A DNA stretch of 64,000 bases from Metallosphaera yellowstonensis MK1. Its GTDB lineage: Archaea; Thermoproteota; Thermoprotei_A; Sulfolobales; Sulfolobaceae. A program made the position numbers and the translations under genes. The notes under the pieces are model-generated. The model ran no database searches. It worked only from the letters and a program-made list of their open reading frames with translations, and was not told where the DNA came from. Of this stretch, positions 7,407-8,688 are shown piece after piece. The first letter of the stretch is position 1; the number at the start of each line of letters is the position of its first letter. Location of the stretch: NCBI RefSeq assembly GCF_000243315.1, contig NZ_JH597761.1, forward strand, positions 227,237 through 291,236, given 5' to 3'.

Positions 7407-8381
7407 ATGGCCAAAGTACACGTCAGTGCTGTAGGAACTTCCCTATTAAAGAACTCTCTGAGCGACGGGAGGGTAAAGGAAGAGGTTGATAGATTGGGCC
7501 TAGGGGACTGGGATAGGCTTAAGTTTGATGACGATAGGCAAAATAAAATAGGGAGCAATTTTAACCGTCTTGAACCTCTCTTACTCAACTACTTGAAAGG
7601 TAAAGGAAAGGTAGCTTGTGCTGAACTGGATTCCTTGTTCTCAGCTCTTAAAAAATTAGAGCATGATAAGAAAAAAGAGGAAGTCCACGTATTTCTTTAC
7701 GCAACGAACACTTGGAATTCTAGGCTTGCTGGGGAGGTGATTAAGAGCTACTTAGATGAGGAAGGAATAAGGTCTGAGCTAGCTATCGTAAAGACAATTT
7801 CATCTGAGGAGACCTTCTATGAGGGCATTGAGGATCTCTTTGATAAAGTTATTTACAAGATACTAAAATTTAAGGAGGAAGGAAACGAAGTTTACATTAA
7901 CGCTACTCCAGGCTTTAAACCCGAAACAGCCTTCCTCACGTTAGCTGGCCTTTTGGCGGGGGCAGACTTAATTTACTATAAATACCAAGAGTTCAACGAC
8001 GTGGTCATACTCCCTTCGCCTCCAATCATTTTTAGCCCTAGATATCTGGAATGGTTAATCAGGTTCGCCAATTGCGGTTACACTCTCTCTGAGAAGAGGG
8101 CTGAAGAGTTGGGAATACCGGTAAAAGTCCTTGAGACTAAAAACCTAGTTGAGAGAAAGGGTGAGGACGCGTACAGACTAAAGGGCTGGGTTAGGAAAAT
8201 GTTAGGGCTTTACTTACCTTTAGCCGCTCCGAGCTCTCAGTATAAGGTTATTGTAGAGGGCGAGGAAGAGAAGGTATTTAACGACGAGAGGGAGGCCTAC
8301 GAGTACATGGAGGCAAAGAGGAGGGAAGGTAAGAGGGTAAGAGTTGAAGTTCCGGATAAGGTGTATTTCCTTGGAACTTGA
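7407..8381 (+). CDS. CRISPR ring nuclease, Crn1/Cas_APE2256 family (Sso2081-like)
   Basis: A 324-residue CARF-domain protein. The N-terminus [15 protein letters not shown] and the later [15 protein letters not shown] are the signature blocks of the APE2256 family. Its member Sso2081 degrades cyclic tetra-adenylate and so switches off type III CRISPR ribonucleases. The conserved Ser12 and Lys171 correspond to the nucleotide-handling residues of that family. A helix-turn-helix-like segment follows around 235-275. The last 50 residues ([18 protein letters not shown] and on) form a small charged domain. A protease-like gene overlaps its 3' end. Csx1, the enzyme it would restrain, lies 35 kb away. 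Confidence 0.88.
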
Positions 8382-8688
8382 GCTGGAAATTGAGGGTATA
8401 AAGGTTCTGGCTAAAGTTGATACTGGTTTTGACGGAGATGTGATAGTTATCAAGAGGGTTTTTGACTCCATCCCTTGCGATCCTTCTCAAGGACCCAGAG
8501 TGTGTACTGCCACCTTGGAATGTTATTCTACTTTTGTTAAACTTGCTAGCGTTAGATACTTAGGAAGAGAGATTATAGCTACAGTCCTTAACTCGCCAGT
8601 AATTGAGAAGAACATAGTAGGGGAAGGATTTTTGAGGAAAATGAAGGCGATAATTGACTACAAGGATAACGATATAAGAGATCCTTAG
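8368..8688 (+). CDS. retropepsin-like aspartic protease (clan AA)
   Basis: About 107 residues with the single D-T-G motif of retroviral-type aspartic proteases ([15 protein letters not shown]). This is followed by the beta-rich segment [19 protein letters not shown] and [16 protein letters not shown], the pattern of the small AF_0612-type clan AA family. Such proteins would work as dimers. Frames at TTG 8344 or TTG 8368 are possible. I prefer 8368 because the beta-strand pattern starts there. Either overlaps the ring-nuclease gene, so the two are probably one transcript. Substrate unknown. Confidence 0.65.

Follow-up and report, generated by a model that had tools for sequence, protein, structure and literature searches.

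A C-terminal domain of a Sulfolobaceae ring nuclease proposed as a partner for the retropepsin-like protease encoded next to it

INTRODUCTION

Why does a gene for a CRISPR ring nuclease overlap a gene for an aspartic protease? Such a pair lies in the window (the whole 64,000-nucleotide stretch of DNA analysed here), which comes from a 2.8-Mb Sulfolobaceae genome. A first reading, made from sequence alone, described a Crn1-type ring nuclease gene overlapped by a small clan AA protease gene. Sso1393 is among the founding ring nucleases, and its structure is solved, yet the sources available to us assign no role to its last 47 residues.

Like the window protease, CalpL (SAVED-Lon)/CalpT and the CHAT-type CRISPR proteases are tied to cyclic-oligoadenylate machinery, according to the sections available to us of PMC9704534 and PMC11229360. 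Their fold is that of Lon or caspase, whereas the window protease is a retropepsin. In addition, they carry the sensor fused to the protease, whereas the window encodes separate chains and ties the protease to an off-switch enzyme. The window arrangement is hence not the fusion of a Lon or CHAT domain with a SAVED or CARF sensor. An open-literature search found no description of a Crn1–retropepsin pair, a mention being possible in the CARF classification, in the type III accessory-gene survey and in the Sis0811 structure papers. Within the portion available, a 2025 ring nuclease survey does not mention Sso1393, and its single occurrence of 'aspart' concerns an HD nuclease domain.

We argue here that the overlapping genes form one functional unit, in which the tail of the ring nuclease is a domain dedicated to partnering the retropepsin-like protease encoded downstream. 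We assign this reading a probability of roughly 0.6.

RESULTS

A Crn1 ring nuclease with a further C-terminal domain

ORF 7407–8381 has a product of 324 aa, which scores 669.4 bits against NF040951 ('CRISPR system ring nuclease', cut-off 600) over residues 1–324 and aligns over its full length with PDB 3qyf (E 2.7e-155), bearing out the Crn1-type assignment. It also matches Pfam families PF22165 (SSO1393-like winged helix) and PF09651 (CARF region). Residues S12 and K171, which we take to be active-site residues with a catalytic role, are invariant in our ring nuclease alignment (A1), and S12 is the site of the S-to-A change between the 7pq2 and 7pq6 sequences. By these matches, the ORF is identified as an Sso1393-type Crn1 ring nuclease, and cutting of cA4 is predicted. 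The features of the pair are:

7407..8381, + strand: Sso1393-type Crn1 ring nuclease gene, with CARF, winged helix and C-terminal partner domain (NF040951, 3qyf, S12/K171)
8037..8213, + strand: ring nuclease winged-helix domain, residues 211–269 (PF22165, E 7.6e-40)
8232..8372, + strand: C-terminal domain of ∼47 aa, residues 276–322, the proposed protease-partner domain (HMM A4, E 1.5e-22, the window row itself being included in A4)
8371..8688, + strand: clan AA retropepsin-like protease gene (TIGR03698, 87.8 bits; PDLC01133, E 6.8e-27; AlphaFold model)
8371..8381, + strand: 11-nt overlap TTGGAACTTGA, with the protease start codon within the last ring nuclease codons (junction comparison)
8419..8427, + strand: catalytic Asp-Thr-Gly, residues 17–19 from the 8371 start (D-T-G in 8/8 ring-linked proteases; alignment A2)

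The ∼47-aa tail sits beyond the CARF and winged-helix domains. An HMM made solely from tandem-repeat proteins picks it up independently, over residues 282–321 (E 5.5e-5). Sso1393 and Sis0811 (3qyf, 7pq2) belong to the same family as the window protein over its full length; the 3qyf chain contains the C-terminal domain and the 7pq2 chain stops near the start of it. Comparing printed alignments by eye, we found that the ring nuclease ORF of one surveyed genome, that of S. solfataricus (G131), reads identical to the 3qyf chain, and this genome carries Sso1393 itself. The part of PMC10018336 available to us describes only a CARF domain and a C-terminal wHTH for Sso1393/Sis0811, mentions neither a protease partner nor an extra domain for them, and reports that the C-terminal wHTH of Sis0811, the Sso1393 orthologue, is auto-inhibitory.

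The protease and its junction with the ring nuclease gene

The downstream gene encodes 105 aa from TTG 8371 or 114 aa from an alternative start, TTG 8344. We take 8371 as the start because the corresponding 11-nt overlap can be read in the junction DNA, as TTGGANYTTGA, in 7/7 closely related ring-type pairs. In a more divergent pair (G146), whose ring nuclease is 43% identical to the window's, the stop codon is followed by GTG. The overlap noted earlier thus stands, most likely at 11 nt; the start at 8344 given with it is probably too early, as G072, G102 and G119 show no equivalent of it. Translational coupling would explain such an overlap by itself, and the two genes might merely be co-transcribed, the C-terminal domain belonging to the ring nuclease alone. 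We consider this improbable, because unrelated carriers have the same domain next to proteases of this one family, and because it is absent from three III-G Cas7 proteins at protease-less loci (below).

The product scores 87.8 bits against TIGR03698 ('clan AA aspartic protease', cut-off 57.35), and its VDTGFDG motif lies at 8416–8436. A sequence search of solved structures with the protease found none. An AlphaFold model (pLDDT 84.2) has as its best structural match the EIAV protease 1fmb (TM 0.70, Foldseek E 0.025; Z 8.4, rmsd 2.8 over 94 residues). All 50 matches listed for the model are retropepsin-type proteases, with retroviral proteases and DDI1 as the top PDB matches. The score above the family cut-off, the D-T-G and the predicted fold agree with the earlier clan AA, retropepsin-like call. 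Retropepsins with one DTG per chain are active as dimers. By analogy, the window protease, with one DTG per 105-aa chain, is expected to pair, and proteolytic activity is predicted.

Both the ring nuclease tail and the protease are under purifying selection. In the computable comparisons, dN/dS (NG86) was 0.06–0.33 for the tail and 0.07–0.32 for the protease, with the higher values coming from the closest pair (G131/G151) and several further comparisons being saturated. In most computable comparisons of the domain, synonymous change exceeded non-synonymous change ∼10-fold.

These data bear on whether the protein could be a catalytically dead scaffold. A paralogue linked to ribbon-helix-helix (RHH) proteins (L003, L062; genomes G131 and G152) has N-T-G for D-T-G and is probably inactive, judging by this substitution, and the ring-linked protease of G072 has FDE instead of FDG. 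Conservation of the D-T-G, which had been proposed as a check on the pair, is nonetheless complete among the ring-linked copies (8/8), selection on them is purifying and the model superposes on active retropepsins, which makes a dead scaffold very improbable in our view.

The pair recurs in Sulfolobaceae

We surveyed 31 Sulfolobaceae genomes, in which TIGR03698 has 44 matches (18 genomes) and NF040951 has matches in 11 genomes. A ring nuclease with a protease directly downstream occurs in eight genomes (G000, G072, G090, G102, G119, G131, G146 and G151). The pair, whose recurrence had been suggested as a test, is therefore found in seven genomes besides that of the window, and the pairing is not due to chance.

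Presence of the protease follows presence of the tail. Among 32 Crn1-type hits, eight have both, 22 have neither, one (in G119) has a look-alike tail without protease and one is a pseudogene. The protease lies directly downstream of 8/8 ring nucleases with the ∼47-aa tail, versus a D-[ST]-G ORF downstream of 0/23 intact Crn1-type ring nucleases not called as tail-bearing. The look-alike is a second Crn1 of G119 (L123:4911-5846), lying near HerA/NurA-like genes and lacking an adjoining protease; its tail is different, partner-like by eye and not called by the domain model. A Fisher test of tail against protease that ignores kinship, leaves out the G084 pseudogene and enters the second G119 Crn1 as tail-positive without protease gave p 1.1e-6 (8,1 / 0,22).

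Two ring nuclease genes are broken or decayed. In G090, a stop and a frame change disrupt the CARF part; the tail is kept as a 65-aa ORF with its own ATG, and the protease downstream of it is still open. In G084 (L044), a Crn1 gene decayed by stops has a recognisable tail, and a protease was not found nearby. A search of plasmids and IMG/VR yielded no confirmed relative of the ring nuclease at the sensitivity used.

The tail domain on other carriers

NF040951 also weakly matches the tail alone in small ORFs. Outside ring nuclease genes there are five such matches, spread over four ORFs, and each is directly followed by another TIGR03698 protease. Of the 44 TIGR03698 proteases, 36 have a partner upstream: a ring nuclease (8), a III-G Cas7 (6), a free or tandem-repeat tail (6) or an RHH protein with a related C-terminal part (16, some of them fragments). 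The eight without one comprise a broken copy, five sequences from an IDSG/IDSS subfamily and two from another divergent subfamily. Above the curated cut-off, 27/27 matches have an upstream partner. Conversely, a search with the tail model found 21 loci at E < 1e-4 in the 31 genomes, 20 of them directly upstream of a TIGR03698 protease; the sole exception is the decayed ring nuclease gene of G084. One caveat here is that the model was built from most of the sequences that it then finds.

The tail-bearing III-G Cas7 proteins are 384–419 aa long (PADLOC Cas7_IIIg, E 2e-54 for the one scanned). The protease is the next gene in 6/6 cases with the tail and in 0/3 without it (G072, G119 and the second locus of G152), giving p 0.012 (6,0 / 0,3) with kinship ignored. 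The three loci without it (L214, L215 and L216), where a long Cas7 stops just short of the partner domain, are a natural protease-less variant of III-G.

The III-G protease is already catalogued, as PADLOC PEPT_D (PDLC01133, 'Aspartyl protease, in the type III operon in Sulfolobales'). Against this entry, for which no curated cut-off is given, the window protease has E 6.8e-27 and a III-G-linked protease E 2.3e-55. PEPT_D thus denotes the same protease family as the window's and fits the III-G operon protease best. It differs in being a type III operon protease, whereas the window protease has a ring nuclease as its partner and lies outside such an operon.

Constant partnership could also mean that the domain inhibits a harmful protease, with ring nuclease, III-G Cas7 and RHH proteins serving as antitoxins. 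Loss or destruction of the carrier, or its cA4-bound state, would then free the protease and so guard the CRISPR system. A partner gene first, a short overlap and an RHH domain are the classical type II toxin–antitoxin arrangement. Here, the partner comes first and the protease second, overlaps are short, and 16 of the 36 pairs include an RHH DNA-binding domain, some of these being fragments. The 27/27 partnership above the family cut-off fits as well, as does G090, where the tail is retained with the protease beside a broken CARF part. Eight TIGR03698 matches nevertheless exist without a partner (seven in the two divergent subfamilies, one a broken copy). The paralogous pairs share gene order, overlap and RHH with type II systems that have RHH antitoxins; in the window, the partner is a winged-helix ring nuclease. 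We regard this inhibitor reading as somewhat unlikely.

The position of the domain raises another alternative. Every copy is either C-terminal or free-standing and finishes in a short hydrophobic stretch (e.g. VYFLG, VYFLL or YHL), which would suit a substrate: the protease might cut the tail from its partner, alone or together with the winged helix, much as CalpL cuts CalpT. Cleavage would relieve auto-inhibition of the ring nuclease, in line with the auto-inhibitory wHTH that PMC10018336, in the part available, reports for Sis0811, and would free DNA-binding or Cas7 partners. However, the whole domain is conserved, with a ∼10-fold synonymous excess that goes beyond the need of a cleavage site, and tandem repeats of the domain exist as free proteins. 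We therefore think it unlikely that the domain is mainly a substrate, and return to our preferred reading, that it is a dedicated partner of the protease.

Homology between tail classes and signs of joint exchange

For a class-against-class comparison, the HMM of one partner class was run against full-length partners of the other classes. The repeat-only HMM finds seven closely related ring nuclease tails (E 5.9e-10 to 5.5e-5, the latter for the window's), and the ring-only HMM finds 6/6 repeat proteins (E 5.4e-10 to 5.6e-7). The ring-only HMM gives the G146 ring nuclease only E 0.42; its tail is found by the Cas7-only HMM (E 2.4e-7). The RHH-class HMM reaches one repeat protein (E 5e-4). Comparisons with hhalign gave 98.2% for ring–repeat, 96.7% for G146 ring–Cas7, 92.6% for Cas7–repeat, 78.4% for repeat–RHH, 72.9% for ring–Cas7 and 41.5% for G146 ring versus other rings; the ring–RHH link is weak (19.4%). 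None of 100 column shuffles scored as well as the observed class-to-class alignments. By profile comparison, the ring nuclease tail is judged homologous to the domains on III-G Cas7 and free repeat proteins, and related to those of RHH proteins.

G146 points to exchange between carriers. Its ring nuclease tail is closest by profile to the III-G Cas7 tails, and its protease groups with the III-G proteases (tree support 87/84), the top six pairwise protease scores all being III-G. This tree left out six of the 44 family matches, which were shorter than 95 aa; with G084:89172 labelled RHH, it has six changes. A single clade of all eight ring-linked proteases was 12.9 log units worse (p-AU 0.0525). 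Across carriers, tail similarity and protease similarity are correlated (Mantel r 0.877, 18 pairs, 0/2000 permutations), in a test that ignored kinship and left out two of the 20 ring, Cas7 and repeat pairs. Close linkage and shared ancestry inflate both the Fisher and the Mantel figures. These data favour, and fall short of proving, exchange of domain and protease as a module.

A distant connection to DUF5678

A similar gene arrangement is found with DUF5678 (PF18929), which has 63 matches in 41 of 300 Thermoproteota genomes. A D-[ST]-G ORF lies directly downstream of 39/63 and upstream of 0/63. The count of 39 is conservative, as plausible proteases with YDTG (G249) or DTK (G351) fall outside the D-[ST]-G pattern; at some matches the contig ends, and in G050 one protease is shared by two of the 63. 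The DUF5678–clan AA pairs resemble the window in having a small partner domain immediately ahead of an ORF for a D-[ST]-G protease. These partners often have a short hydrophobic C-terminal end and often a 4-nt overlap with the protease. They differ from the window in having no CRISPR protein attached.

Using hhalign, DUF5678 gave 96.9% with the RHH partners, 76.7% with the repeats and 5% with the ring nuclease tails. No PF18929 match was found in the window ring nuclease at E up to 1. We therefore rejected filing the ring nuclease tail as DUF5678, given the lack of a Pfam match and the direct hhalign value of 5%; from these profiles, their relation appears to be distant and transitive only, via RHH partners and repeats. 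The DUF5678 model folds as beta-beta-alpha-beta, and a fold search with it gave no convincing match, 3qyf being absent among the matches listed. A role for DUF5678 was not found described in an open-literature search; we suggest that archaeal DUF5678-like domains may serve as protease partners.

Genomic surroundings

In the window, the ring nuclease/protease pair lies outside a type III operon, flanked by VapBC-like, transposon-related and phosphoesterase genes. On this contig, RAMP-type genes and a GGDD-containing ORF of Cas10 length are found ∼23–30 kb upstream of the pair, the nearest Cas10-length GGDD ORF found being ∼25 kb away. Other CRISPR-related genes of the window are:

43477..44871, + strand: Csx1-type CARF-HEPN protein (PDLC01952 CARF9--CARF_HEPN, E 6.3e-200)
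49012..49563, − strand: small CARF protein, CARF5 group, type I-associated (PDLC01905, E 7.2e-81; PDLC01063 'Type I associated', E 5.1e-60)
49931..50746, − strand: Cas6a (PDLC02100, E 4.2e-52)

The Csx1-type protein belongs to the same CRISPR island as the pair and, from its domain match, may be an RNase activated by cA4. The S. solfataricus (G131) pair lies in a type I-A locus between the Cas4a1/Cas4a2 and CARF5/Cas11a genes, and in G146 a Csx1 gene and a Csm4-like fragment are nearby. The pair is part of CRISPR islands and is not tied to one operon type.

Several other elements were seen in the window. Directly upstream of the ring nuclease gene, on the opposite strand, genes for a PIN-domain protein (PF01850) and an AbrB/MazE-type partner (6518–7163, − strand) form a VapBC-like toxin–antitoxin pair. 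The first ∼19 residues of ORF 1485–2351 (− strand) are those of a RAMP-like ORF ∼23 kb away on the same contig (L217:5296-6120), and the sequence then becomes transposase-like; this may be a second type III gene copy that carries a transposon. A perfect 70-bp tandem duplication lies at 1091–1230. Short dispersed repeats with CAGCAGTTAT/ATAACTGCTG, present at many sites in both orientations (e.g. 8908–8967, 9149–9208, 16094–16179 and 40105–40211), form a family and look like the ends of small transposable elements.

DISCUSSION

Our preferred reading, in which the tail serves specifically as a partner for the protease, draws support from several patterns: adjacency for ring nucleases (8/8 versus 0/23) and for Cas7 (6/6 versus 0/3), class-against-class homology, the 20/21 tail loci, the 27/27 partnered proteases, the exchange seen in G146, the Mantel correlation, the intact tail and protease of G090, and the one-sided DUF5678 arrangement (39/63 versus 0/63). 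Counting against it are the weak links of the ring nuclease tail to DUF5678 (5%) and to the RHH class (19.4%), the second Crn1 of G119, the location of the pair outside a type III operon, and the AU p of 0.0525.

How might such a unit work? Crn1 dimers, RHH dimers, the Cas7 backbone and tandem repeats are known or likely oligomers. The tail would most likely bind the protease, and a Crn1 dimer would hold two protease chains, because a retropepsin with one DTG must pair for activity; more generally, the carrier would present or restrain the protease in pairs. The state of the CARF/winged-helix body would then decide assembly, exposure or release of the protease during a type III alarm. Control by cA4 is plausible because the winged helix beside the tail is reported, in the available part of PMC10018336, to be auto-inhibitory in Sis0811. 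Physical binding, the dimer-on-dimer arrangement and any gating by cA4 are our inference, and control may act in either direction.

Two simpler descriptions were set aside. 'General protease of type III operons' does not serve as the whole answer, since the pair lies outside such an operon and similar pairs occur outside CRISPR. 'cA4-gated protease' was dropped as a claim, there being no evidence for gating.

A broader proposal can be made tentatively, at somewhat below even odds: Sulfolobales CRISPR systems may have gained a retropepsin-fold effector or guard through one portable domain, acting as a leash, on at least two unrelated proteins, Crn1 and III-G Cas7. The oligomeric or ligand state of the carrier would decide whether the dimeric protease is assembled or freed. 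The available text of PMC12669027 describes a III-G model with six Cas7 copies and presents III-G as presumably lacking cyclic-nucleotide signalling; III-G Cas10 is reported not to make cyclic oligoadenylate. On III-G Cas7, the same domain would provide this orphan subtype with an output and, if the proposal is true, the leash would be an alarm route that works without a second messenger.

If the tail does hold a retropepsin, the ring nuclease would be more than an off-switch, with the protease as a possible effector, timer or guard. The findings suggest that CRISPR immunity in Sulfolobaceae is linked to a kind of protease that is new there.
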